Made by a program: the position numbers and the translations under genes
Notes under the pieces: generated by a model
The model's database searches: none
What the model saw: the letters and a program-made list of their open reading frames with translations, nothing else
Told to the model about the DNA's origin: nothing
Part shown: positions 1,559 to 35,987 of the stretch, in pieces
Numbering within the stretch: the stretch's first letter is position 1
Layout of the letters: each line of letters begins with the position of its first letter
Source: a virus
Reading direction: 5' to 3' (one strand)
IMG/VR virus record: IMGVR_UViG_3300009177_000068
Location: 1 to 39,560 of that record
Length of the DNA: 39,560 nucleotides

Positions 1559-2058
1559 TAACGGAGCTTGATGATGTCGTCGTAGTGCTTGGGTTCCAAC
1601 TGGTTCACGAGCCCAAGCGCCACCGCTTCATCTCGCCAAAGATACTCTTCGGTCTTTCCGAAGAATTTTTCGATCATCGCATCGCCCCAGCCAAAATCTT
1701 GGCGGAAACGCTGGTAGGAAATCTGCGTCTGCAAATCGTCGCTCTTGCCGTCGAGCGAAGCCTCGTGAAGCATGAAGCGCGCGGTGGGTGAAGCGGTGCG
1801 AATCGTGCCGCCCGCATAGATCAAACAGCCAGCCGACATGCAATCGCTGAAGGCGTGGGTGTCGAAGTCAAACTCTTTGATGAAGTTCGAAAGCATCAGC
1901 CCCCAATACGAATTCCCACCCTTGATATTCTCAAGGCCAAGGGTGACGTGGTCGCCGTTCTTTTTGTATTCAGAAAGCTCATCAATGATGCGCTCGCAGT
2001 CCCGCGCCTGAAGCGTGTTGAAGCTGCTGTCTTGGACGAGACGAAGGAGAATCCGCAT
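1555..2058 (-). CDS. ClpP-like / crotonase-fold serine protease
   Basis: 167 aa. The sequence CMSAGCLIYAGGTIRTASP followed by TARFMLHEAS resembles the ClpP active-site region: Ser75 in place of the nucleophile and His98 23 residues later (25 in E. coli ClpP), with the A-x-G...P-x-A-R-x-M-x-H framework. The C-terminal DEAVALGLVNQ matches the EA..yGLVD strand of ClpP and other crotonase-fold enzymes. The catalytic Asp is not obvious in the KTEEYLWRDEA stretch. It may be a head-maturation or cytoplasmic protease, or an inactive relative. The ATG at 2058 is preceded by TAAATAGGAGT, which holds both a late-promoter-like box (5 nt away) and a GGAG too close to be an ideal Shine-Dalgarno site. Confidence 0.65.
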   Translation of the reverse strand: MRILLRLVQDSSFNTLQARDCERIIDELSEYKKNGDHVTLGLENIKGGNSYWGLMLSNFIKEFDFDTHAFSDCMSAGCLIYAGGTIRTASPTARFMLHEASLDGKSDDLQTQISYQRFRQDFGWGDAMIEKFFGKTEEYLWRDEAVALGLVNQLEPKHYDDIIKLRY

Positions 2059-2063
2059 ACTCC

Positions 2064-2071
2064 TATTTACC
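2064..2071 (-). promoter_or_regulatory. T4-type late promoter box (GGTAAATA), 5 nt before ATG 2058
   Basis: On the reverse strand TAAATA is followed by five bases and then ATG. By analogy with T4 late promoters (box at -13 to -6) transcription would begin at the A of the ATG. Confidence 0.5.
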
Positions 2072-2091
2072 GATTTTATGGTGCGGCCCTC

Positions 2092-2099
2092 AATAAATA
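2092..2099 (+). promoter_or_regulatory. T4-type late promoter box (AATAAATA), 5 nt before GTG 2105
   Basis: AATAAATA, then ACGAC, then an in-frame GTG. The predicted late transcript would start on the GTG, supporting this start over the internal ATG at 2153. Confidence 0.55.
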
Positions 2100-2104
2100 A
2101 CGAC

Positions 2105-2323
2105 GTGAGCGGCTACCATCCTTACCGTGTTTCTATCGGCCGTGAGCACATCATGACCAACGGTTTTCTGAGTGATGAAGGGAAGGCGTGGTTGGACGAA
2201 AACGGCGCCGGAAAAGACTGGTATGTGATCGACGGTCCCTATATCGCCCGCCACCATTCGCAAAAATGCGCGTGGTTCAAAGATCAAAGCTTGGCGACGC
2301 TCTTTCGACTGTTTTTCGGGTAA
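2105..2323 (+). CDS. Small protein of the C-terminal F-x-D...FK/RLxW family
   Basis: 72 aa from GTG 2105, or 56 aa from ATG 2153 (start MTNGFLSDEGKAWLDENG). GTG is preferred because it lies exactly five bases after a TAAATA box; no Shine-Dalgarno sequence is visible for either start. The end, WFKDQSLATLFRLFFG, resembles the C-termini of at least five other small proteins in this window. Function unknown. Its TAA stop forms part of the next late box (TAAATA at 2321). Confidence 0.65.
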   Translation: MSGYHPYRVSIGREHIMTNGFLSDEGKAWLDENGAGKDWYVIDGPYIARHHSQKCAWFKDQSLATLFRLFFG

Positions 2324-2326
2324 ATA
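2319..2326 (+). promoter_or_regulatory. T4-type late promoter box (GGTAAATA), 4 nt before ATG 2331
   Basis: The TAA stop of the preceding gene is embedded in the box; TCCG then separates it from ATGCGC. No Shine-Dalgarno site lies before the ATG. Confidence 0.5.
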
Positions 2327-2330
2327 TCCG

Positions 2331-2735
2331 ATGCGCGATCTCATCAACCTCGTCGAATCTGCCCAGTATGAGCCAGACCAAAAATATTTCGGGCTCATTC
2401 CGGCAATCAAATATCTGCCGGTGTCCGCTATCCATCGACAGGAGATGGATCACATGCCTGAAGTGATGTCGGTCAGCGATGAGGTGGCCCGCAATATGGA
2501 TTTCTCCGAACCGGTCGAAGTCACCGCATTTCGTTTCGCACACAATGCTCGGGATCGTCAGGAAGACGATGATGCGCTACCCGAAGTCACACTTCGTGAT
2601 GGCCATCATCGCACGGCTGCGGCAATCCAGACGGGACGCCCCTATCTGCCGGTCGAGTGTCGCGCCATCAACGCCAAGGGCTACAAGCTGAACGCGCTGA
2701 TCGCCCTCTCCAAGCAGATCGAAGCGAGGCTATAA
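2331..2735 (+). CDS. ParB/sulfiredoxin-like domain protein with capsid-targeting-like N-terminus
   Basis: 134 aa. The N-terminus MRDLINLVESAQ matches the targeting-like motif shared with four other proteins here and contains an L-V-E cleavage-type site. Residues about 26-110 resemble the ParB-like nuclease/sulfiredoxin fold: IKYLPVSAIHRQE, then PVEVTAFRF, then RDGHHRTAAA at 89-98 and GRPYLPVE, the arrangement seen around the GxHR box of that superfamily. In that fold the box binds nucleotide or phosphate; DNA or nucleotide binding is plausible but unproven. ATG 2331 lies 4 nt after a TAAATA box. If packaged, it could enter the host with the DNA (inference). Confidence 0.65.
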   Translation: MRDLINLVESAQYEPDQKYFGLIPAIKYLPVSAIHRQEMDHMPEVMSVSDEVARNMDFSEPVEVTAFRFAHNARDRQEDDDALPEVTLRDGHHRTAAAIQTGRPYLPVECRAINAKGYKLNALIALSKQIEARL

Positions 2736-2738
2736 ATA
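2731..2738 (+). promoter_or_regulatory. Perfect T4 late promoter box TATAAATA, 4 nt before ATG 2743
   Basis: Exact TATAAATA overlapping the TAA stop of the upstream gene. CGTG follows, then ATGCGC. A start at +1 after five bases would fall on the T of the ATG, or on the A with a one-base shift. Confidence 0.65.
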
Positions 2739-2742
2739 CGTG

Positions 2743-3003
2743 ATGCGCGAATTCATCAACATCGTCACCGAGAGCAACGACCCGAAGGCACTGAAGGCGC
2801 GGCTGCGCAAGATCGAGTCTGATCGTCGGTATCTGATTACTGCCATGTGCACGAATGCGTGTGGCCGCGCCGCTGCGGCTCTTGCGGAAGGCGACACTGA
2901 ACGCCACGCGAAGATCATGGCGAATGTCGCCACCTACGTGGAGCAGGCTGCCGCGCTGGAAAAGGAAGCGACCGAAGTCGCCAACCAACTAAACGGCGTC
3001 TGA
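2743..3003 (+). CDS. Small helical protein with capsid-targeting-like N-terminus
   Basis: 86 aa, MREFINIVTESN... A GTG at 2740 would add one residue. The first twelve residues match the shared motif, including V-T-E. The rest is predicted mostly helical (KALKARLRKIESDR..., AAALEKEATEVANQL) with an Ala-rich middle; no known domain is recognised. Candidate internal head protein by its N-terminus only. Its 3' end overlaps the convergent reverse gene (2989-3165) by 15 bp. Confidence 0.65.
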   Translation: MREFINIVTESNDPKALKARLRKIESDRRYLITAMCTNACGRAAAALAEGDTERHAKIMANVATYVEQAAALEKEATEVANQLNGV

Positions 3004-3165
3004 CTTCCGCAGCCGTTCGATCTCGTCCGCAGCTTCCTCAAGAAGGTCCGCGATCCGGTCCCGCTGACCATCCTGCACCGATTTGCGGGTGGGGATTTGG
3101 CGCCTGATCTCGGCGCGCTTCCGCAGCCGATAGACCAGATCGTTTTCGTCAATTTCGCTCATCAT
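2989..3165 (-). CDS. Small charged helical protein, last gene of the PLP-enzyme operon
   Basis: 58 aa (MMSEIDENDLVYRLRKRAEI... to ...EIERLRKSDAV). Start codons ATG 3165 and 3162 are in tandem; the first overlaps the upstream TGA as ATGA. The sequence has a high share of Arg/Glu/Asp and a coiled-coil-like C-terminal half (RDRIADLLEEAADEIERLRK). Function not recognised. Confidence 0.65.
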   Translation of the reverse strand: MMSEIDENDLVYRLRKRAEIRRQIPTRKSVQDGQRDRIADLLEEAADEIERLRKSDAV

Positions 3166-3431
3166 TCCCCCTCGATGTCAGGCACGAGTTTGTCGGCCGC
3201 AATCTGGTCGAAGTCAAATTCCTTCGCCTCTCCCAGCCCGTCCAATAGCGTGACGTTGGTGAGCACCGCTTGGTGATACTCACTGTGATTGCCGTCACCC
3301 CATGCGATCCAGATCATGGGCTTGCGTTCGAGTCGCACGATGGTCCCGAGCATCACATCGGTCGTGCTGGTCACCGATACGGTTTGCCTAACCCGCAGGT
3401 CTTCCCACGGCACCTTGGATAGCTGGCTCAC
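3162..3431 (-). CDS. Hypothetical protein, fourth gene of the PLP-enzyme operon
   Basis: 89 aa from GTG 3431, one base after the TAA of the upstream gene; the frame stays open further upstream but that part is out-of-frame shadow of the preceding gene. The first half looks like a small beta-barrel (VRQTVSVTSTTDVMLGTIVRLERKPMIWIAWG split into strands). The second half is acidic (EFDFDQIAADKLVPDIEGE). Function unknown. Confidence 0.6.
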   Translation of the reverse strand: MSQLSKVPWEDLRVRQTVSVTSTTDVMLGTIVRLERKPMIWIAWGDGNHSEYHQAVLTNVTLLDGLGEAKEFDFDQIAADKLVPDIEGE

Positions 3432-3432
3432 C

Positions 3433-3918
3433 TTATTCGGCGTTCCAGAGGAAGATGCTCTCTTCCGGGTAGCTCTGGGTCGCGTCGTCCCAGTTTCGCT
3501 TCGCGAAGAACTCGATGACCGTAATCTTGCCGTCCACCTCGTTGGTGATGGCATGGATATAGTGGGCGAACAGGTCGAAGCGGCGGATGATGACATCTCC
3601 GCTCTTGCGACGATAGTCGCGGGTCCAAGCGGATTTCTTGAACGGCGGCCGGGGCCAATGACTGTAGTGCTTCTTCGTATAGGCCCAGAACGCCGCCTCG
3701 TCCGCGTGGAGCTTCACGCCCGTGGACACATAGTCCTTTCGACCCTGCTCGACCACGATGAAACCGCCCTGCCGATAGCTGCGGTCGGGGAGCGCCACCT
3801 CCTTGTAGTCGGTGTCGTCCTTGTGTCGCGCCCAGATGGCATCGGTCGCCCAAGTTGCTCCGTCGGCGTTGATGAGTTCGAGAATCGCCGCGACGTGATC
3901 TGCTGATTTAAGGGTCAT
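3433..3918 (-). CDS. Hypothetical protein, third gene of the PLP-enzyme operon
   Basis: 161 aa from ATG 3918, which overlaps the TGA of the HExxH gene as ATGA, so translation is probably coupled. N-terminal helix (SADHVAAILELINADGATWA), then an alpha/beta region rich in Tyr, Trp and basic residues (KKHYSHWPRPPFKKSAWTRD) and a C-terminal set of hydrophobic strands (KITVIEFFAKRNW). I do not recognise a family. Confidence 0.65.
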   Translation of the reverse strand: MTLKSADHVAAILELINADGATWATDAIWARHKDDTDYKEVALPDRSYRQGGFIVVEQGRKDYVSTGVKLHADEAAFWAYTKKHYSHWPRPPFKKSAWTRDYRRKSGDVIIRRFDLFAHYIHAITNEVDGKITVIEFFAKRNWDDATQSYPEESIFLWNAE

Positions 3919-4748
3919 GCCTTCGCCATCGCCTTCGCATATTTTTCCTTGTTCGCCCAGTAGAAGGTGGCGAACAGTTCGGCCTCTTGGCGGAACGGCA
4001 CGTTGTCCACGGGGTCCTTCGCGGCCTCCGTGGTGATCCAGTTGAGATGGTGCGCGAGGGCTTCCTCGCGGCTCACGGCCGTCGCCATCTGGAAGTTCGA
4101 CATGTGGTTCTCGACTTCTACGTAGCGATCCGACCATGTGATCGAGTAGATGGCGTTCTGCTCAGCGAACCGGCGAATCCATTGCTCGGTGATGTCCATC
4201 AGGTGTTCGGGCTTGCTGACCATCACGTCGCGGCGGATCGACCGAATGGTCTCCACGGCCACGTCCTTGTTGGTCGCCCACAGCGCCTTCATGTCCACGT
4301 CGTCCAAGAACCGATCCGCATAGATCGGGTGCGGGAACGAGTTCGCGCGAAGTTCCGGCATCTCGAAATAGATGGTGATCTCGGACATGCTGCTCGCTTC
4401 GAGTTCGTTGCGTTGCATTTTGTCGTCGAATGCCGCCTTCCCGATGTTCGGGACGTAGGGCATGTGCGCCGAGTGATAGAACTCGTGCAGAAGATAGAGA
4501 TCGTGGATCACCGGGTTGGTGTAGTCGTCGCGGAGCATGATAACGCCCCACCACGTCGAGAAGTGGGCGCGCTCAAGATGGTCGTTCGACATCTCGGCGA
4601 AGATGCGCGGCAGCCACGCGAACCGCTCGACGGCCCGCCAGATGAAACCGCCCGACTGGTGCGAATCACGGAACATGTCCGTCTTCCACTGGCTCAGGAC
4701 GAATTCGTGAATGGCGTCCTTGCTGGCGATGGCACGCACGTTCTTCAT
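3915..4748 (-). CDS. HExxH-containing protein (gluzincin-like metallopeptidase or diiron protein)
   Basis: 277 aa from ATG 4748, overlapping the TGA of the aminotransferase-fold gene (ATGA). Residues 88-92 are HEFYH in the context LYLLHEFYHSAH, and 23 residues later comes NELEASSMSE (114-123) followed by FEMP. HExxH plus a downstream E in an NE..AS context is the pattern of gluzincin metallopeptidases and resembles the ImmA/IrrE layout. ExxH also occurs in ferritin-like or haem-oxygenase-like diiron enzymes, and the largely helical, aromatic-rich sequence would fit those too. Its pairing with a PLP enzyme favours a biosynthetic role, but neither reading is proven. No signal peptide. Confidence 0.55.
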   Translation of the reverse strand: MKNVRAIASKDAIHEFVLSQWKTDMFRDSHQSGGFIWRAVERFAWLPRIFAEMSNDHLERAHFSTWWGVIMLRDDYTNPVIHDLYLLHEFYHSAHMPYVPNIGKAAFDDKMQRNELEASSMSEITIYFEMPELRANSFPHPIYADRFLDDVDMKALWATNKDVAVETIRSIRRDVMVSKPEHLMDITEQWIRRFAEQNAIYSITWSDRYVEVENHMSNFQMATAVSREEALAHHLNWITTEAAKDPVDNVPFRQEAELFATFYWANKEKYAKAMAKA

Positions 4749-5794
4749 TGGATCACCCCGCTGGTTCCGATCCGTTCGGCGAGGCCCGGCGTCAGGCACA
4801 GGCGCACCTTGCCCGCCCGCGTCAGATAGTCGGCCAGATCGTTGGGAAACTCGGTGACGCCATTCGCGAGCATGAACACGTCGGACGGTTCGAGCAGATG
4901 GATTTTGGTTTCCTTGGAAACCCGCACCGTCATGGCGCGCTGGTAGGAACCATAGGTCTCCGGCATGTAGAAGACGCCGTGACGCTGCATCATGGTGGTG
5001 CCGAGACGCAGCCCGGTCAGGCCCTTGAACCATTTGTTGCCGAACAGGCCCAAGTCCTCTTCGCGGCAGAACACGCCGCCGATGCGGTCGTAGTAGAAGC
5101 CGAAGGGCTTCGACAGGCTGAAGACCACGTTGCGGATCGACGGCTGGTTCAGATTGAACTTTTCGACGATCCTGCTCGACGGCACCGCGCCGACGTAGGT
5201 CATGTCGGCCACCACGGTGTTGTGCGGCATCTTCGAGATGAACTCGTTGAACTCGGGCCAGACGTTCCCGTCGATGGCTGACGGCTGACTGATGAAGAAC
5301 ATTTCGGTGCGCGGCATGGACGCGGCGATGGTCTCCCACTTGTCGCGGGGCCATTCTCGCACGATGCACCCGGCGGCTTCCGCCATGGCCTTGTAGCCTT
5401 CGTATTCGCCCTCGAAGAAATTGACGCAGCCGGTCAGGCCGCTCAGGCGGATGCGGGCCGCGTAGGCGAAGATCAGGTGACGAAGGGGCTCGCTGGCCCC
5501 GGCGGTCGGATAGAAGAACGGGAAGAGGGTGCGATCCAGTTCGACCACCGGCTTCGACCACTCGTGCCACACCTCGAAGAACTCTTCGTGGTAGCGATCC
5601 TGCTTTGCGGTCCATGCATCGCGGAATTGTTCGAGGTAGGCGTTGCGCTCGGCTGAGCCCAGATCGCCGAACACCTCGGCTTTCACGGCTTCAGTTTCCG
5701 GGGTGACCAGCGCGTAGACCGTCTTGCTGACGCCCATCGCGAGCAGCCGCGCATTGAGGGCCACGTTCGGGTTGAATTGCGTCGTGGTCGCCAT
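4745..5794 (-). CDS. PLP-dependent aminotransferase-fold (type I) enzyme
   Basis: 349 aa, first gene of a five-gene reverse operon, with an excellent Shine-Dalgarno sequence (AAGGAGG) before ATG 5794. Fold type I marks: YPTAGASEPLRH (about 95-106, cofactor phosphate loop region), FFEGEYEGY, VVADMTYVGA with Asp197 (PLP ring N contact), and FSLSKPFGFYYDRIGG with Lys229 as the Schiff-base lysine and Arg237. Length is near the usual 350-420 aa but short at the C-terminal domain. The substrate cannot be read; transamination, decarboxylation or group transfer are all possible. Followed by an ATGA-coupled HExxH protein. Confidence 0.7.
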   Translation of the reverse strand: MATTTQFNPNVALNARLLAMGVSKTVYALVTPETEAVKAEVFGDLGSAERNAYLEQFRDAWTAKQDRYHEEFFEVWHEWSKPVVELDRTLFPFFYPTAGASEPLRHLIFAYAARIRLSGLTGCVNFFEGEYEGYKAMAEAAGCIVREWPRDKWETIAASMPRTEMFFISQPSAIDGNVWPEFNEFISKMPHNTVVADMTYVGAVPSSRIVEKFNLNQPSIRNVVFSLSKPFGFYYDRIGGVFCREEDLGLFGNKWFKGLTGLRLGTTMMQRHGVFYMPETYGSYQRAMTVRVSKETKIHLLEPSDVFMLANGVTEFPNDLADYLTRAGKVRLCLTPGLAERIGTSGVIQ

Positions 5795-5817
5795 GGTCCC
5801 TCCTTGATCGAGAAGTC

Positions 5818-5845
5818 ATTCTCGTCTCGTTTGCGAAAATGTCAA
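5818..5845 (-). promoter_or_regulatory. Sigma-70-like promoter for the PLP-enzyme operon
   Basis: Reverse strand: TTGACA (5845-5840), 16-bp spacer, GAGAAT (5823-5818), about 24 bp upstream of the ATG at 5794. The -35 box is perfect, the -10 box weak. Confidence 0.5.
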
Positions 5846-5882
5846 CAGAAAGTAGAAAACAGAATTCGCCGACCGCTTATTG

Positions 5883-5910
5883 TTGACGCCCTTCGAACCC
5901 GTGGTAGTTT
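5883..5910 (+). promoter_or_regulatory. Sigma-70-like promoter for the glycosyltransferase cassette
   Basis: TTGACG (5883-5888), 16-bp spacer, TAGTTT (5905-5910), then AAGGAG before ATG 5945. It is divergent from the reverse promoter at 5818-5845; the 150-bp intergenic region is AT-richer than its surroundings. Confidence 0.6.
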
Positions 5911-5944
5911 TTGTTCACATTCGAGTTGAAGGAGCGACCCACAA

Positions 5945-6997
5945 ATGAAAATCGGCGTGTTGATCCCGGCCTATAATGAAGAGTGCGTAATCGCCGACAC
6001 CATCGGCGCGCTCATCGTGGCTGGCTATTCGCCGACCGACATTTATGTGGTCAACGACCGCTCCACCGACCGCACGGAAGAGATCGCTCTTTCGCTCGGC
6101 GTGCACGTCATCACGGTCCCGGTCAACGGCGGCAAGGCCAAGGCGCAGGAATATGCGCTGAAGAACTATGGCCTCACCGATCTTTACGACTGGATCGTCT
6201 TCCTCGACGGCGACACCAAGGTTGAGCCCAATTTCGGCCGCGTGTTCGAGTTCGCCGCCATCGACAATCCCGACGTTTCGCTTTTCGTCGGCCAAGTCGC
6301 CTCGGCCAACAACCGCCATATCTTCTCGGCGTATCGGGCGTTCGAATACGCCTACGCGCAGAACATCATCAAAAAGGGTCAGGACAACTTCAGCGTCGTC
6401 TACGTCTCGCCCGGTTGCGCGTCCATGTATAAGTCCAGCGTGCTGGCCCAACTGCACATCGACTCCAACACGCTGGCCGAAGACATGGACCTGACTCTTC
6501 AGGTTCATCGGCTGGGCGGCAAAGTGAAATACGTTCACGATGCGGTAGTCGTGACGCAGGACCCGAATTCCCTCAAGGATTATGTCAAGCAATCCATGCG
6601 CTGGAAGCGCGGATTCTGGCAAACGATCCTCAAGCACCGGACGTTCTCGTTCACGCGCAAGCAAGCGGTGGACTGGTATATGATCTACCTGACGCTGGAA
6701 TCTCTCATCTTCAACAAAATCTTCCTGTTGGGGGCGGCGTGGATTCTGTCGGGTCCGATGGTGATTGTGTGGGGGCTGTTGTTCGACCTGCTCATCTTTT
6801 CGGCAATCGCTTTCTACTCATTTACCAAAACAAAGCGGGTTGACACTCTCACACATATACCTGTATTTTACCTGCTCGCTTACGTCGGCCTCTATGTCCA
6901 CCTCGTGAGTTTTGTAGAGATCATCGTGCTCCGCAAACACATCTTGGCGTGGAACAAGGTCGAACGGTATCAATTCGACGATCTAGTAACCGCGTAA
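5945..6997 (+). CDS. Processive membrane glycosyltransferase, family GT2
   Basis: 350 aa. GT-A domain at about 1-230: LIPAYNEE at 6-13, NDRSTD with Asp38, FLDGDTKVEPN with DGD at 88-90, VSPGCASMY near 154-162, AEDMDLT with ED at 179-180, and QSMRW at 216-220, the QxxRW motif of processive beta-glycosyltransferases (cellulose, chitin, hyaluronan and poly-GlcNAc synthases). Two or more membrane helices follow (about 245-292 and 303-330). It should polymerise or add sugars from UDP-sugars on the inner face of the cytoplasmic membrane. Shine-Dalgarno AAGGAG lies close upstream of ATG 5945. Bases about 6700-6990 are less GC-rich. It is first in a cassette with exported proteins and an L,D-transpeptidase-like protein, suggesting envelope modification. 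Confidence 0.85.
   Translation: MKIGVLIPAYNEECVIADTIGALIVAGYSPTDIYVVNDRSTDRTEEIALSLGVHVITVPVNGGKAKAQEYALKNYGLTDLYDWIVFLDGDTKVEPNFGRVFEFAAIDNPDVSLFVGQVASANNRHIFSAYRAFEYAYAQNIIKKGQDNFSVVYVSPGCASMYKSSVLAQLHIDSNTLAEDMDLTLQVHRLGGKVKYVHDAVVVTQDPNSLKDYVKQSMRWKRGFWQTILKHRTFSFTRKQAVDWYMIYLTLESLIFNKIFLLGAAWILSGPMVIVWGLLFDLLIFSAIAFYSFTKTKRVDTLTHIPVFYLLAYVGLYVHLVSFVEIIVLRKHILAWNKVERYQFDDLVTA
6840..6867 (+). promoter_or_regulatory. Possible internal promoter within the glycosyltransferase gene
   Basis: TTGACA (6840-6845), 16-bp spacer, TGTATT (6862-6867), same spacing as other promoters here. It could give extra transcription of the exported protein gene at 7032. Chance occurrence in an AT-richer stretch is possible. 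Confidence 0.3.
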
Positions 6998-7031
6998 AGT
7001 TTTGTCAGAAAACAACAGAAGGACTACACAC

Positions 7032-7484
7032 ATGAAGACCACCACTCTCCTGCTCGCCGCCGCTGTATCCGCTCTGGCTACCGCCGCGTCCGCCGCTCCG
7101 CTGGCCTATCCCGGCACCGCTTGGGGCACCGTCACCTATCCGTCGAGCGTCATCGGCCACAGCCCCGAGTCGAACGATCTGGTCTACCAAGGCCAAATCA
7201 CGCAGGGCGCCGATCTGGCCGTCGTGAACGGCTGGACCGTGGACACCTTCGGCCGCCTGAACTACACCATCGACACCAAGGGCGTGGACTGGAACAACAA
7301 GGTCCAGCCGTCGGTCGGCGTGAAGATCACCCGTCCCGTGAAGATCGGCGGCGCCACCGGCGTGCTCGATCTGGGCGTGGAAGCCGTCTACGAGCGTCGC
7401 TTCGGCACCGAGTTCAAGACCCCCGACCGCGACGGCGTCGGCGTGCGTGTGAGCGCGGGCTACTGGTTCGGCTGGGGCCACTAA
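7032..7484 (+). CDS. Exported (periplasmic or outer-membrane) protein with signal peptide
   Basis: 150 aa from ATG 7032 (AGAAGGAC upstream). Residues 1-22 are a classical Sec signal: MKTTTLLLAAAVSALATAAS ending A-S-A before APLAYPG. The mature part alternates polar and hydrophobic residues (VLDLGVEAVYERRF, GVGVRVSAGYWFGWGH) like a small beta-rich protein, and an aromatic-rich C-terminus is compatible with an outer-membrane beta-barrel. Family not recognised. Lies 34 bp after the glycosyltransferase. Confidence 0.7.
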   Translation: MKTTTLLLAAAVSALATAASAAPLAYPGTAWGTVTYPSSVIGHSPESNDLVYQGQITQGADLAVVNGWTVDTFGRLNYTIDTKGVDWNNKVQPSVGVKITRPVKIGGATGVLDLGVEAVYERRFGTEFKTPDRDGVGVRVSAGYWFGWGH

Positions 7485-7523
7485 GGTCCCCGCCAACTAG
7501 CAGCCACAGAAAGGAACACGCAC

Positions 7524-7742
7524 ATGTATGGTAACGTCACTGGCGGAAGTTCGCTGATCGTGAATCTCGCGATGCGCTTCCCGAAGACCGCCGCTGCTGT
7601 GGCCGCCACGGCGGCCGTGGTCGCGGTCGCCACTCCGGCGCAGGCTCCGGCCACTCCGGCTCCGGCCCCGGTCGCCCAAATCCAGCCGGTCGCGGCCAAG
7701 CCGCTTCCGGTCCTGCCCGCCCGCAAGCACATCTCGGGCTAA
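7524..7742 (+). CDS. Small Ala/Pro-rich exported or membrane-anchored peptide
   Basis: 72 aa, AAAGGA upstream of ATG 7524. A hydrophobic Ala/Val stretch at about 24-40 (AAAVAATAAVVAVATPAQA) could be a signal or anchor. It is followed by a Pro/Ala-rich tail with P-A-P repeats and a basic end (PARKHISG), typical of linkers that span the periplasm or cell wall. Function unknown; context suggests an envelope role. Confidence 0.6.
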   Translation: MYGNVTGGSSLIVNLAMRFPKTAAAVAATAAVVAVATPAQAPATPAPAPVAQIQPVAAKPLPVLPARKHISG

Positions 7743-7748
7743 GGCAAC

Positions 7749-8102
7749 ATGGTCGAAGTCGTCGTCCATCTGATTGCGGCTACGATCTGCTTTTCGGGAT
7801 CGTGTCACCCCGTCCTTGTGGGTGACACGACTCCGACTGGCACCTACGATCTGAAGCACTATGCGACCGCTGCTCCCGGCTACGGCGGGGACATTCTGGT
7901 CTACAAGGATGACGGCAGCGACCGCGTGTTCGCCGTCCACCGTGTCCTGAACATCAAGGGCGAAAATCGCCCGCAGCGTTTGCGGAGCAGCAACCCGTCC
8001 GACCGCCGCGCCGTGACGCATGGCTGCATCAACGTCGAGCCCATCGTCTATAAGCGTCTGACGGACTGCTGCTCGTCCGCGAAGCTGGTCATCACCCGAT
8101 AG
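7749..8102 (+). CDS. L,D-transpeptidase-like (YkuD-type) protein
   Basis: 117 aa. VTHGCINVEP at 89-98 matches the YkuD catalytic motif (S/T)HGCxN with Cys93 as nucleophile. His64 (FAVHRV) is a candidate for the upstream motif His, though about eight residues farther away than usual. TTPTGTYDLKHY at about 27-38 matches the substrate-side strand of the family. The hydrophobic first 16 residues may be an export signal, but no clear cleavage site is seen. The family cross-links peptidoglycan or attaches proteins to it, in the periplasm. Shorter than most full-length enzymes. It follows the Ala/Pro-rich peptide by 6 bp and converges directly on the next gene. Confidence 0.7.
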   Translation: MVEVVVHLIAATICFSGSCHPVLVGDTTPTGTYDLKHYATAAPGYGGDILVYKDDGSDRVFAVHRVLNIKGENRPQRLRSSNPSDRRAVTHGCINVEPIVYKRLTDCCSSAKLVITR

Positions 8103-9059
8103 CTACTTCGAAGAGACCTTGAACATTTTACCCCACAGGTCTTGCCGCAGGGGTTTCTTGGTTCCGAGTTCGAAGATGCCAGTCAATCGAAGTGGTGAAT
8201 CCGGGGCGAACACCACTTCATGCTCTTCGGGGAAAATGTAGTTCTGCGCTACGGTTTCTTCGATATTCACCTGACCTGACACTTCACCAACGAACAAGAC
8301 GTTCGGTTGCGCCATCAGGTCTGCGGTGTTGATGTCGGGGCGCAAGGCCCAGAAGAAACCTAGCGAGGCGCCGGGCGTCAATCGGGTGAGATCACTCTCG
8401 TCCAACTGCATGACGCGGTAGACGGTGAGCGCAGGCTGCTTAGCTAATTTTGTTGCGCTGTCGATCTCGATGTTCAGAAGTTCGTGCCAGATGCCGTCGT
8501 CATCATCGTCCTCGGGGAACGCGTTGAGCCCATCCTGTTCGTCGATCAACTGAATGATCCGGGGGATGTTGACTTCGATGAACGGAGCTTCCTCGTTCAG
8601 GTCATCGCCGCCGTAGGTCACGAACATCGCATCCTTGCCGGTGAACAGTTGGATGCCGTCGATGGTCGGATCGAGCGCGCGGACGAACTTGCCGATGTCG
8701 TCGAAGTCAACCACAAACTCGCGGTTGCTCGGATAGCCCAGCAAGCGTTGCGCGCCTTGCAGCCATATTTGGTAATCGTTCACTCCGTCGAAGCGCAGAG
8801 CGTTGTCGGGAAGATAGGCGCGCGGGATTTCGATGACGCGACCATAGGCGGCTGCGTCCTTCTTGTTGGCAGTGAAGTAGAGTCCCAGCCCATAGGTCGC
8901 CATGCCATGACCCGAATGTTCACTGACCCCGCGCCACAGGCGCGCGCTCGCCGGAAGCTTTACCCCATGCTTGCAGCGATGGTCGGAGAGGATTTGGGCG
9001 GCAAGCTCGGGAGGAATTTGTCTCTGAGCTTCAGCCAAAAGATTGATGAAATGACGCAC
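8103..9059 (-). CDS. ADP-ribosyltransferase-like protein with capsid-targeting-like N-terminus
   Basis: 318 aa from GTG 9059, 4 nt after a TAAATA box. N-terminus MRHFINLLAEAQ fits the T4 internal-protein targeting pattern with an L-A-E site. Two regions look like mono-ADP-ribosyltransferases. Region 1 (about 38-125) has LWRG with Arg43, then YGLGLYFTANKKDAAAYG (56-73), like the (H/Y)G..GLYFT....A..Y pattern. Region 2 (about 210-300) has VYRVMQ with Arg215, PGASLGFFWAL at the S-T-S position, and FPEEHEVVF with E279-H-E281 as an ExE-type motif. An acidic run (DDDDD near 184-188) separates them. T4 Alt is a packaged ADP-ribosyltransferase that modifies host RNA polymerase; a comparable injected role is inferred. 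Confidence 0.65.
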   Translation of the reverse strand: MRHFINLLAEAQRQIPPELAAQILSDHRCKHGVKLPASARLWRGVSEHSGHGMATYGLGLYFTANKKDAAAYGRVIEIPRAYLPDNALRFDGVNDYQIWLQGAQRLLGYPSNREFVVDFDDIGKFVRALDPTIDGIQLFTGKDAMFVTYGGDDLNEEAPFIEVNIPRIIQLIDEQDGLNAFPEDDDDDGIWHELLNIEIDSATKLAKQPALTVYRVMQLDESDLTRLTPGASLGFFWALRPDINTADLMAQPNVLFVGEVSGQVNIEETVAQNYIFPEEHEVVFAPDSPLRLTGIFELGTKKPLRQDLWGKMFKVSSK

Positions 9060-9063
9060 CCAT

Positions 9064-9071
9064 TATTTAGG
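9064..9071 (-). promoter_or_regulatory. T4-type late promoter box (CCTAAATA), 4 nt before GTG 9059
   Basis: Reverse strand; the TAA stop of the deoxyribosyltransferase-like gene is part of the box. ATGG follows, then GTGCGTCAT. Confidence 0.5.
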
Positions 9072-9684
9072 TGCGCTTCATGGCCGCCATCAGAAGTTCT
9101 TCCAGATCGTGGAAGACCGGTGTGTTGTATCGCCGGGCCAGAGCTTCGAGATATTTCGTCTTCGGAGACCCGGCCGGGAAGCCCAAGATTGCCTTGCCGG
9201 ACGCGACCGACAGGCCGAACTCGACGTTGGTCGTGAAGGCGGGCATATCGACAAGGTCCCTCGGAACCCAGAAGACAATCGCGCTGGCGCGATCCAGTCC
9301 GGCCCACTCCCATTCGATCTGGCCATCGTAGTTGTCATGGCTCGCCCAATCCGGTTGCTCGGGCACCAAGACCGTTCCCGCAAAGCGATGCTGGTTGAGG
9401 ATCGCCAGCGCACGCGGGCGCCACGACGGCACGTCTTGGCTGCGCGGGGTGGGACCGGCCAAGAAGATGACCTTGGGAAGCTCCTGAAGGGCGTAGACGA
9501 CGTTCATGCCCAGATTGCTGTCCGTGGGCACATACGGCGCGACATCGGCCTCAGCGGGCTCCGCAGAGGCTTTGTGGCACATTCCACCGCACCATTCGCT
9601 GACTTCGCATGACCACTTCGATGGACAGTTCGGACTAGCCTTGAACGCACCACCAATCGGTTGGCTTTCACGCAGGTCGCCCAT
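9067..9684 (-). CDS. Nucleoside 2-deoxyribosyltransferase-like protein
   Basis: 205 aa. From about residue 70: KVIFLAGPTPR, SWRPRALAIL, GTVLVPEQ, YDGQIEWEWAGLDRASAIVFW and TTNVEFGLSVASGKAILGFP follow the nucleoside 2-deoxyribosyltransferase-like pattern (Rossmann-like fold, GP loop, D..D, E-x-G). Such enzymes move deoxyribose between bases or hydrolyse the glycosidic bond and may serve nucleotide salvage. The N-terminal 65 residues are unrelated and contain three Cys in CEVSEWCGGMC. ATG 9684 has no good Shine-Dalgarno sequence; an internal Met about 10 residues before KVIFLAG is an alternative start. Confidence 0.65.
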   Translation of the reverse strand: MGDLRESQPIGGAFKASPNCPSKWSCEVSEWCGGMCHKASAEPAEADVAPYVPTDSNLGMNVVYALQELPKVIFLAGPTPRSQDVPSWRPRALAILNQHRFAGTVLVPEQPDWASHDNYDGQIEWEWAGLDRASAIVFWVPRDLVDMPAFTTNVEFGLSVASGKAILGFPAGSPKTKYLEALARRYNTPVFHDLEELLMAAMKRT

Positions 9685-28975: not shown

Positions 28976-29215
28976 ATGGTGGTGAAGAGCTACGACCCGG
29001 TTACGATGAAAGTTGCCGCCGAATATCCTTTTGAAGTGACGGTCCAATCGGACGCCGATGTAATGATAGAAATGATGGAGTGGTGTGAAGCCAACTGCGT
29101 CCGGTTTTGGATGTTCGGCCCAACTCTACCCATCAAAGTTTTTGAGACGTGGACCTACTTCATCGCTTTCCAAGACGACCAAGACGCGATGTTTTTCAAG
29201 ATGCGGTGGCAATGA
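28976..29215 (+). CDS. Small-protein paralogue family member, coupled to tyrS
   Basis: 79 aa. VTVQSDADVMIEMMEWCEAN, then KVFETWTYFIAFQDDQDAMF and FKMRWQ at the end: the clearest example of the family layout (helix D-x-V..., W-T-Y-F-I strand, F.DD.DA..FKMRW). The TGA overlaps the tyrS ATG (ATGA). Function unknown. Confidence 0.7.
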   Translation: MVVKSYDPVTMKVAAEYPFEVTVQSDADVMIEMMEWCEANCVRFWMFGPTLPIKVFETWTYFIAFQDDQDAMFFKMRWQ

Positions 29216-30438
29216 ATTCTGACCTGATCCGAACGCTCAACGAGCGAGGTTTTATCAACCAAGCGACCAACCTCGAAGGTTTGGATGCGCTTACTGCTGA
29301 GCGCAAGATCACCGGCTACATCGGCTTTGACCTGACGGCCGATAGCCTGCATGTCGGCTCGCTGATCCAGATCATGGTGCTGCGCCATCTCGCCGCCTTT
29401 GGCCACGAGCCGCTCATCCTGCTGGGTGAGGCCACGACGCGCGTGGGCGACCCTTCCGGTAAGACGGCCTCCCGGCCGATGCTGACCACCGCCCAGATCG
29501 AGCACAACAAGCAGGGCATCGAGAAAGTGTTCCGCAAGCTGGTGGACAAGCCCGTCTTCGTGTCGAACAGCGCATGGTTCAACGACGACACCACGCTCTT
29601 CGACTACCTGCATTCCTACGGCCCGCATTTCTCCATCAACCGGATGCTGACCTTCGATTCGGTCAAGTCCCGACTGCGTGGCGACAAGAGCCTGTCGTTC
29701 CTCGAATTCAACTACATGCTGATGCAGGCCATCGACTTCTACAAGCTGTCGATCCTCTCAGACTGCGCGCTGCAAATCGGTGGCTCCGACCAGTGGGGCA
29801 ACATCATCAACGGCGTCGAACTCGTCCGTCGAAAGGAGGGCCGGGAAGTCTTTGGCTTCACGACCCCGCTGATGACGAACTCGGCTGGCGAGAAGATGGG
29901 CAAGACCGCCGACGGCGCCATCTGGCTCGACCCTGACAAGACATCGGCTTTCGAGTTCTGGCAGTTCTGGCGCAACGTCGAAGACGTGAAGGTCGGAGAA
30001 TTCCTCCGGCTGTTCACCGACGTGCCTATGGACGAGATCACTCGCCTCGAAATCCTCGGCGGGTCCGAACTGAACGAGGCCAAGAAAATTTTGGCCACGG
30101 AAGTCACCGCCATGGTCCACGGCCGCGCCACGGCCAATCACTCGGCGCTGCTGGCTGGCGGCGGCCGTGTCGAGCCGTGCCCCGACAGTATGCCGATGCA
30201 CATCATTCCGGCGCAGGTTTGGAATGGTGGCGTGACGCTCGCGCAAATCTTGCTGGACGCCAAGCTGGTGACCTCCAAGGGCGAGGCCGACCGCATGGCC
30301 GCCAATGACGGCGTCAAGATCAACGGGCACGTCGTGAATGAAGTGCGCACGGTCCTCCCGCGCGCCGCGTTCGAGGACAGCAATTTCCTGCTCTCAGTCG
30401 GCAAGAAGAAGATGGTCGCCGTGAGGATCGAAGACTGA
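29212..30438 (+). CDS. tyrS: Tyrosyl-tRNA synthetase, full length
   Basis: 408 aa from ATG 29212; bacterial TyrRS is about 400-430 aa. Class I catalytic signatures: ADSLHVGS (HIGH motif, 47-50), IGFDLTADS for tyrosine and ATP binding, GGSDQWGNIINGVEL (190-204), and EKMGKTADG (KMSKS equivalent KMGKT, 228-232). The C-terminal portion has an anticodon-binding helical region and an S4-like domain (VTLAQILLDAKL, DGVKINGHVV). All key residues seem present, so it should charge tRNA-Tyr. Complete aminoacyl-tRNA synthetases are uncommon in phages. Composition does not differ obviously from neighbours. It is flanked by phage-type small genes and coupled on both sides (ATGA, TGATG). Confidence 0.92.
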   Translation: MNSDLIRTLNERGFINQATNLEGLDALTAERKITGYIGFDLTADSLHVGSLIQIMVLRHLAAFGHEPLILLGEATTRVGDPSGKTASRPMLTTAQIEHNKQGIEKVFRKLVDKPVFVSNSAWFNDDTTLFDYLHSYGPHFSINRMLTFDSVKSRLRGDKSLSFLEFNYMLMQAIDFYKLSILSDCALQIGGSDQWGNIINGVELVRRKEGREVFGFTTPLMTNSAGEKMGKTADGAIWLDPDKTSAFEFWQFWRNVEDVKVGEFLRLFTDVPMDEITRLEILGGSELNEAKKILATEVTAMVHGRATANHSALLAGGGRVEPCPDSMPMHIIPAQVWNGGVTLAQILLDAKLVTSKGEADRMAANDGVKINGHVVNEVRTVLPRAAFEDSNFLLSVGKKKMVAVRIED

Positions 30439-34822: not shown

Positions 34823-35052
34823 AGGAGCGGTAGACCGTTCTTCTCGACGCTCTTCACGCGGTCGTCGATCTGAGAAAGAATCGACTTCCGTTCTTCGTGG
34901 CTGAGCGTCCACGCTTCTTGGCGGGAGAGGCTCCCGCGCATGTGCCACATGATCGAGTGGATGTGCTCCACCAGATCACGTTGCTCTTTGCGGAAGCTGT
35001 TTAGAAGCCCCTGAAGCTCCCGAAGGTCTGTGATTCTCAGGAGCCGTTGCCG
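34819..35052 (-). CDS. Downstream ORF probably expressed by -1 frameshift from the gp26-like gene
   Basis: The frame has no ATG, GTG or TTG near the end of the preceding gene. The only junction codon is CTG at 35040, overlapping the TGA as CTGA. In the -1 frame after the slippery site (35052-35058) translation runs RQRLLRITDLRELQGLL... to ...KSVEKNGLPLL, about 77 aa. The conserved-looking end RQEAWTLSHEERKSILSQID resembles small tail-assembly proteins in other T4-like phages (memory, not searched). In-frame ATGs at 35112 and 35091 lie inside the upstream gene and are less likely. A rare CTG start is the alternative. Confidence 0.6.
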   Translation of the reverse strand, partial: RQRLLRITDLRELQGLLNSFRKEQRDLVEHIHSIMWHMRGSLSRQEAWTLSHEERKSILSQIDDRVKSVEKNGLPLL

Positions 35053-35987
35053 AAAAAACTTGTAGGATCGAACTCGACCTCGGTGGTCCATTCGTGCTCG
35101 CACTTGGTGCACTGAACGTCGAGTTTCTTGTTGATGCCCGCGCCGTTGATCTCAGCGAGCTTGTCCTCGATCTTCTTCGCCCACGTTTGGCTGGTGTTGT
35201 TGATGAACTCCAAGATGTTGGCCTTGTCGGTCACCAGACCGGAGGGGATCGACACCGAGATCACGCAAGAAGCCACCGCGTCGATGTTCAGCTTGCTCAT
35301 CTTGACGAAACTCTCGTTCCGGGCATCCGCCATGCGCTTTTCGGCCATGGCCCGCTCTTCCGGGGTGCCGTCGAACAGTTCAACCACTTCTTCGGCGATA
35401 CCTTGCAGCTTCCGAGCCTCGCCGAAGCTTTCCATGGCGACCTTGGTGGCCACTTCCAGCGTGTAGGGTCGCAGGCTGACGACGATATCGTCCGTGAGCC
35501 GGACTTCGTTGATCGGGTCCACGAACGTCATGTTCGCCATCATCGACGGCAAGTGGCAGTCGAAGGCGTTCTCGTGCGTGCAGTTCGGGCAGACGACTTC
35601 GATCTCCATGTTCTCGCCATAGGTCGAAGCACGGATCGCCAGAAGGATCACATCCAGATCAGGCGTGCTGACGAGACGGGGCCGACGGATCGCCGGAACG
35701 CAAGAGCGCACCAGTTCTTCAAGGGCCAGCCCACTCATCAGAGCATCGGGCGAGCGAAGCAGCAGTTCGTCGGCCGCCTTCATCGGGAACACCGGCACGT
35801 CACCGGCCAGCGTGGGATCGTAATCCTCCGGCGGGAGGAAGGCGCCCCGCGTCGGTAGCGTGATGTGCAGACCCGGCATACGGAAATAACCGGCCAGCGG
35901 GTTACTCGACGGAACTCCGGCGGTTTTCGGCACTGGTTGGAAGAATTCGGCTTCGTTGAAGTCGTCTTCAGGAATGTCTTTGGTCAT
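35037..35987 (-). CDS. 26: gp26-like baseplate hub / tail assembly protein (T4 baseplate family)
   Basis: 316 aa. LHITLPTRGAFLPPEDYDPT, VFPMKAADELLLRSPDALMS, and STPDLDVILLAIRASTYGEN followed by VCPNCTHEN (CxxC) are the marks of the T4-type baseplate protein family that includes gp26. A second pair, CTKCEHEW, near the C-terminus could complete a zinc site. T4 gp26 is 208 aa. The late box lies upstream with a leader of about 26 nt lacking a Shine-Dalgarno site. It ends FFGNGS with a -1 slippery site seven codons before the stop. Divergent from the tape measure gene, consistent with a role in assembling hub or tail around it. Confidence 0.75.
   Translation of the reverse strand: MTKDIPEDDFNEAEFFQPVPKTAGVPSSNPLAGYFRMPGLHITLPTRGAFLPPEDYDPTLAGDVPVFPMKAADELLLRSPDALMSGLALEELVRSCVPAIRRPRLVSTPDLDVILLAIRASTYGENMEIEVVCPNCTHENAFDCHLPSMMANMTFVDPINEVRLTDDIVVSLRPYTLEVATKVAMESFGEARKLQGIAEEVVELFDGTPEERAMAEKRMADARNESFVKMSKLNIDAVASCVISVSIPSGLVTDKANILEFINNTSQTWAKKIEDKLAEINGAGINKKLDVQCTKCEHEWTTEVEFDPTSFFGNGS
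35052..35058 (-). promoter_or_regulatory. Candidate -1 programmed frameshift site (T_TTT_TTC)
   Basis: On the reverse strand the codons AGT TTT TTC contain the X_XXY_YYZ heptamer T_TTT_TTC. Seven bases later GCTCC can pair with GGAGC (about 20-nt loop) as a stimulatory stem. The -1 frame continues without stop to 34819. Confidence 0.65.

Follow-up and report, generated by a model that had tools for sequence, protein, structure and literature searches.

Why would a virus carry, in one tight row, a gene resembling those of polysaccharide synthases and a gene for a protein resembling L,D-transpeptidases? This question is raised by a four-gene locus in the window analyzed here, a 39,560-base virus fragment (IMG/VR virus record IMGVR_UViG_3300009177_000068, positions 1 to 39,560). 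The four open reading frames, encoding a GT2 glycosyltransferase (GT), a small exported beta protein (P2), a small membrane protein (P3) and an L,D-transpeptidase-like protein (P4; its family is called LDT below), lie where a preliminary description had placed them, all on the + strand (Table 1). Our best explanation, to which we give a probability of about 0.58, is that they constitute a mobile phage cassette in which a polymer synthase is tethered to the cell wall by the LDT.

Table 1. Features of the four-gene locus, in window positions
Feature	Position	Strand	Basis
GT2 membrane glycosyltransferase (GT), 350 aa	5945..6997	+	Pfam, NCBIfam, profile, residue conservation, hydropathy
Small exported beta protein P2, 150 aa from ATG	7032..7484	+	homologues, AlphaFold2 (AF2) model, structural neighbours
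Small membrane protein P3 (Ala/Pro-rich), 72 aa	7524..7742	+	conserved core, arm, C-terminal tail
P3 C-terminal tail KHISG, proposed LDT recognition and acceptor signal	7725..7739	+	tail-class statistics
P4, minimal YkuD-fold L,D-transpeptidase-like protein (LDT), 117 aa, THGCIN, phrog_38499 family	7749..8102	+	
P4 putative catalytic residues: His64 (7938-7940), Thr90 (8016-8018), Cys93 (8025-8027)	7938..8027	+	alignment

The assignment of the window to a T4-like myovirus, made in the preliminary description, is backed by a T4_baseplate gene at 35037-35987 (Pfam 8e-19) and by a hub protein whose relatives belong to large myoviruses, e.g. PA5oct, Atu_ph07 and Phosso. Within the locus, the genes are separated by gaps of 34, 39 and 6 nt, and because the gene at 8103-9059 is oriented in the opposite direction, the four-gene unit stops at 8102. 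A host-type promoter had also been proposed ahead of the operon; this part is not supported, as a promoter scan gave no sigma-70-like site immediately upstream of the GT gene. Two genes at 3915-5794 on the - strand diverge from the cassette and encode a protein of unknown function and an aminotransferase-like PLP protein (Pfam 0.0015, hisC-like 0.0019), the latter with no relative in the phage collection. On the other side, 9067-9684 (- strand) encodes a nucleoside 2-deoxyribosyltransferase-like protein (Pfam 1e-14), which has a weak homologue in one LDT locus (L039). The window also contains a full-length tyrosyl-tRNA synthetase-like gene at 29212-30438 on the + strand (Pfam tRNA-synt_1b, 8.8e-67), which is unusual for a phage; no tRNA gene was found in the 39,560-base fragment.

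The first gene of the cassette had been described as a QxxRW membrane GT2 like those of polysaccharide synthases, and our analysis agrees with this. The window GT matches Pfam Glyco_tranf_2_3 (E 2.7e-28), and D38, D88-G-D90, E179-D180 and Q216xxR219W220 are invariant in eight homologues. Hydropathy peaks solely at residues 258-294 and 305-330, which suggests about three C-terminal membrane segments, and an N-terminal membrane segment is absent. The protein thus carries the set that marks a processive GT2 synthase (D, DxD, ED, QxxRW and membrane segments). Its nearest curated families in NCBIfam are PgaC/IcaA and NodC, both matched far below their equivalog cut-offs (PgaC_IcaA TIGR03937: 1.3e-26, 93.6 bits, against a cut-off of 422.3 bits), and a profile built from the eight cassette GT homologues matches hyaluronan and cellulose synthases in the PDB, best of all the hyaluronan synthase 8snc (6e-11). 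Phage surface conversion (seroconversion) is well known, and the GT could instead be a non-processive GtrB-like enzyme that modifies the host O-antigen or virion glycoproteins, as a partial match to the GtrB-like phrog_841 (E 5e-7, residues 1-95 only) might suggest. We regard this as quite improbable, since QxxRW and the wider processive residue set are invariant, the best families are PgaC and NodC, and the gene keeps company with an outer-membrane-like protein and, in related loci, with deacetylase, acyltransferase and GH16 genes.

These related loci came from alignment-based scans with the LDT, to which scans with GT and P2 added more; a DNA-level search of phages gave no match, and exact-peptide scans using single cassette proteins gave no relatives. 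Cassettes were sorted by an HMM survey and flank comparison, separate contexts being those that share fewer than two flanking ORFs. They fall into ten contexts, of which the window is one by itself. The full order GT2-P2-P3-LDT occurs in six contexts, one of them the window, whose flanks are unrelated and whose GTs show 45-56% identity, and further contexts hold the GT-P2-P3 core without an adjacent LDT. This conservation of gene order across contexts argues that the four-gene set is not due to chance. The preliminary description knew of no such set in a T4-like phage and had named a scattered neighbourhood as evidence against a functional unit; instead, the cassette recurs elsewhere with its order kept in unrelated phage contexts. 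Of the other window genes that were compared with the related loci, only one matched, in an LDT locus lacking the cassette; the cassette thus travels as a module. Capsid and terminase scans found Gp23 in three large cassette contigs, the other contigs being too short or divergent to judge.

Sister cassettes carry Polysacc_deac_1 (E 4.5e-17 to 2.7e-19), Acyl_transf_3 (2.8e-18) and GH16 (about 1e-12 to 1e-16) genes, and the window cassette is a minimal form, without the deacetylase or GH16. A set of deacetylase, acyltransferase and hydrolase genes beside a PgaC-like synthase is similar in composition to operons of the PNAG type. The earlier suggestion that the locus synthesizes a surface polymer is supported by these companions, from which we infer the polymer chemistry.

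The second gene product had been characterized as a beta-rich protein with a signal peptide, and both features were found again. The first 21 residues of P2 are signal-peptide-like (judged by eye), and its AF2 model (pLDDT 85) comprises one short and five long antiparallel beta strands, the long ones with the alternating polarity of amphipathic strands. Among its best structural matches, almost all are outer-membrane barrels (OpcA, PagL, OmpA), at Z scores of 8.7 and lower that lie near the tool's quoted background, and a Foldseek search returned no significant match. The predicted count of ~6 strands is low for a monomeric barrel when a closed barrel of 8 or more strands is the standard of comparison. 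Judging from the model, P2 is probably an outer-membrane beta-barrel subunit. P2 homologues are present in every cassette; searched alone, P2 has no relatives in Pfam, PHROG, phages or plasmids, and in sampled bacterial genomes it is rare (2/369 and 1/398), one of the hits being a two-repeat version. A protein with two tandem P2 beta modules is encoded at 772-1851 of a bacterial locus (L101, genome G183), and this duplication suggests that P2 forms a dimeric or oligomeric barrel.

The last gene had been read as a THGCIN L,D-transpeptidase-like protein, and this reading is supported by a predicted YkuD fold and by conserved putative active-site residues. P4 itself matches Pfam YkuD (PF03734) with an E value of 0.0019 and 19.2 bits, under the gathering score of 23.4 bits, and 22 of its 36 relatives match the same family at E<=0.01 (best 1.6e-5). 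The AF2 model, built from an alignment of 36 homologues, has a pLDDT of 94.6 and was placed by VIA-align closest to the mycobacterial L,D-transpeptidase 4xvo (Z 13.7) and B. subtilis YkuD 1y7m (Z 13.4), which makes the YkuD fold a secure prediction. The structural match spans residues 1-117, so P4 would be a bare catalytic domain. P4 (4.6e-38) and all 36 homologues also match phrog_38499, whose function is listed as unknown. His64, Gly92, Cys93 and Asn95 do not vary among the homologues, which have either Ser or Thr at position 90 and all keep the GC[IV]N end; 34 of the 36 aligned LDTs have another residue in place of the histidine of the HGC motif. In the window, THGCIN is present with a His-to-[ST] spacing of about 25; we take the classical YkuD motif to be H-X(14-17)-[ST]HGChN.

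The frequent loss of the HGC histidine and the Pfam score under the cut-off would fit a YkuD protein that acts as a hydrolase (an L,D-carboxypeptidase or a DpaA-like amidase) or as a peptidoglycan-binding scaffold, on which the partner tail described below docks non-covalently; DpaA provides a precedent, YkuD folds being able to hydrolyse protein-peptidoglycan bonds (PMC10653827). We consider such a function unlikely, because the homologues all keep the GC[IV]N end as well as the active-site His, Ser/Thr and Cys, and because the best structural matches are transpeptidases.

LDT loci were found 42 times in IMG/VR and seven times in bacteria. P4 shares ~53% identity with a protein of Stenotrophomonas phage Summit and has relatives in Xanthomonas and Erwinia phages. 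The Summit gene (locus L002, 78043-78396) is mis-annotated: the annotated CDS begins about 105 nt inside it, so that the catalytic domain was called truncated. How such an enzyme would reach the periplasm is a question raised by its N terminus. The first residue of P4 falls at the very beginning of the YkuD catalytic domain, and a classical signal peptide is absent. A signal peptide is lacking in 34 of 36 aligned LDTs; a signal-peptide-like N-terminal extension was seen in only three relatives (those of loci L027 and L042 and the gonococcal LDT). The hydropathy of the first strand averages 2.13, with a minimum of 1.37, in the 34 proteins without a signal peptide, versus 0.53, 0.51 and -0.43 in the three extended forms. 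As a guess from the sequence, this hydrophobic strand could itself serve as an export signal. In one locus (L009, E. coli pSTEC648_2, 1569-8525), an LDT-family domain (8e-22) is part of a 2318-aa protein encoded near GH104, holin and lysozyme genes, and this is perhaps a virion-delivered form.

What, then, would the LDT act on? The gene immediately 5' of the LDT encodes one of several unrelated types of exported protein, including P3, Gly/Asn/Ser-rich exported proteins with an ACGPLQ domain, a family of 130-150 aa (GSGTPG/PTAATIWPR) and others, and nearly all of these partners share a lysine-containing C-terminal tail, for example KHISG (window), KRIRQ, KRIGE, KKISQ, KKKKE and KKPLG. The pattern K-x(2-4)-[GEQ]-COOH is present in 41 of 44 LDT partners and broken in three, as compared with 29 of the 649 remaining ORFs in these loci (Fisher 1.8e-43, a value that counts related sequences as independent, applies no phylogeny correction and concerns a pattern defined after the tails were seen). 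An origin of the tail from overlap with a Shine-Dalgarno sequence was rejected on account of the partners that end 40 nt or more ahead of the LDT, all of which carry it (19/19). A second exported family (LTSSNDTCMGS...LKN.RE.WNMG) is encoded two genes 5' of many LDTs, directly before a tailed partner of the GSGTPG type (L052-L055, L057, L061 and L067).

The pairing extends to a bacterial chromosome. In gonococcus, a secreted LDT homologue adjoins a BamE-domain ORF ending in KPKRIRQ; the surrounding genes, identified by eye, are leuS-like and ppk-like. In that record the BamE-domain gene looks disrupted, since an upstream stretch that is likely a lipoprotein signal peptide is in another frame. 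Anchoring of the Braun type would need such a pair, an LDT and, next to it, an outer-membrane lipoprotein that carries a Lys tail.

Within the cassettes, the tail goes with the LDT. P3 consists of an N-x-x-MR[FW]P core with a hydrophobic stretch, a Pro/Ala-rich arm and the C-terminal tail, and its core is conserved both in LDT-positive and in LDT-less cassettes. The third gene had been described as encoding an Ala/Pro-rich exported peptide; the ORF stands, and for its product a protein that crosses the membrane once, with the Pro-rich arm in the periplasm, is a better reading than a secreted peptide. The tail, mostly borne on the Pro-rich arm, is found on P3 in 10 of 10 cassettes with an adjacent LDT and in none of the seven others (p 5e-5; about 0.005 once cassettes are collapsed to contexts). 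In six LDT-less cassettes P3 has no tail, and in three of these it is just 35-38 aa long. Locus L061 has flanks in common with tailed cassettes; here the LDT lies upstream beside a different tailed protein (KKIKE), and P3 has the arm without the tail. It had been suggested that the locus fixes a polymer or a protein to peptidoglycan; the protein version is favoured, as the partners share a Lys tail that P3 bears only when the LDT is adjacent. The tail is thus probably the LDT substrate, tethering the partner protein to peptidoglycan.

The same observations admit a looser arrangement, in which GT, P2 and P3 make a polymer and the LDT and tail form an independent module that anchors or cross-links any upstream exported protein (e.g. 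for wall stiffening or lysis delay), the link to the polymer being secondary. Most LDT loci do lack a GT and pair the LDT with other exported tailed proteins, and L061 indicates that LDT and partner move together as a pair. However, in six contexts the LDT lies directly behind P3 and the tail is on P3, so that in these the LDT probably has a subunit of its own cassette as target; we consider the looser arrangement unlikely, while giving it real weight. A role of the gene set in lysis, weakening or reshaping the wall before release, seems very unlikely. The set would act on the envelope, and one cassette (locus L067) has a lysozyme-like gene ~4 kb downstream; nevertheless, no holin or endolysin was recognized beside the window cassette, and a lysis role is disfavoured because in phage Summit the full set of holin, endolysin and spanin genes is about 49 kb away from the LDT and tailed partner.

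We therefore return to the tethered synthase. From the computed gene order, folds, catalytic-residue conservation and tail-LDT association we infer a mechanism, conditional in its polymer chemistry, P3 topology, LDT export route, covalent cross-link and benefit to the phage, by which the four genes would remodel the envelope of an infected Gram-negative cell. The GT2, with P3 as partner subunit, would polymerize sugar from cytoplasmic nucleotide sugars and pass the polymer, probably of the beta-linked N-acetylhexosamine type (Pga/Ica/NodC/hyaluronan class), across the inner membrane. P2 may provide an exit or docking element in the outer membrane. P3 would span the inner membrane once and reach into the periplasm with its Pro-rich arm, where the LDT would join the tail Lys to meso-DAP of peptidoglycan stems. 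Since the LDT neighbour in the window is P3, the probable inner-membrane synthase partner, it is the polymer machine that would be tethered to the wall. The likely benefit would be masking of receptors against competing phages, or protection of the infected cell.

A broader proposal, to which we give slightly less than even odds, is that a minimal LDT and an exported partner with the shared signal Lys-x(2-4)-[G/E/Q]-COOH form a dedicated Gram-negative system for sorting proteins to the wall, present in phages and some betaproteobacteria, similar to sortase/LPXTG and swapped among unrelated partners, which here would fasten a polysaccharide synthase of the virus to the wall of its host. The tail has a substantial chance of being a sorting signal that is both new and general. 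If these readings are true, phages can make a polymer of their own and anchor it to the host surface as a form of superinfection control, and phrog_38499 gains a function. The tail would also point to a portable C-terminal signal of general use in linking proteins covalently to Gram-negative peptidoglycan, and this could help to predict which proteins are anchored in the wall. Against our best explanation we count that most LDTs lack a signal peptide, that the Lys lies 3-5 residues inside the terminus, that three tails are exceptions, that the HGC His is replaced in most LDTs, that the window cassette has no deacetylase or GH16, and that P2 has few predicted strands for a monomeric barrel and no significant Foldseek match.

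LDT anchoring and phage surface modification are each already known separately; for their combination, the mobile viral synthase cassette, the pairing of a dedicated tail with the LDT, or a phage LDT of this type, the open-access literature searched gave no description. Among polymer synthases, the cassette resembles Pga/Ica (PNAG) operons, NodC and hyaluronan synthases, including that of Chlorella virus, in its processive GT2 with QxxRW, an adjoining small membrane protein, an outer-membrane-like component and, added by sister cassettes, a CE4-type deacetylase, an acyltransferase and a glycoside hydrolase. It differs in that the GT has no N-terminal membrane segment and stays below the PgaC and NodC equivalog cut-offs, in the small P2 that takes the place of the large PgaA porin, and in being phage-borne. 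Jumbo-phage clusters for capsule or O-antigen modification (PMC7824862) are likewise phage glycosyltransferase clusters, proposed to pre-empt rival phages; they are, however, cyanophage clusters of NDP-sugar and multiple GT genes, and the text of that paper mentions neither YkuD nor a transpeptidase.

For the anchoring step, the closest parallels are the LDT tethering of Lpp and OutB (PMC12274547), LimB and Lpg1810 (PMC12729407), in which a YkuD enzyme acts with an exported or membrane protein whose accessible Lys is in most cases C-terminal or close to the C terminus. LDTs attach Lpp and the inner-membrane protein OutB via a C-terminal Lys (PMC12274547) and Lpg1810 via a C-terminal Lys-Thr motif (PMC12729407), and OutB further resembles P3 in being an inner-membrane protein with a periplasmic linker. 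In contrast to the terminal Lys acceptors of Lpp and OutB, the Lys of P3 is near the C terminus, and the cassette tail ends in G, E or Q. Here, moreover, enzyme and substrate would be a dedicated adjacent pair, the enzyme is a bare catalytic domain, and the pair is viral. To phrog_38499, a family of unknown listed function, our analysis adds a predicted fold, a partner tail and a cassette.
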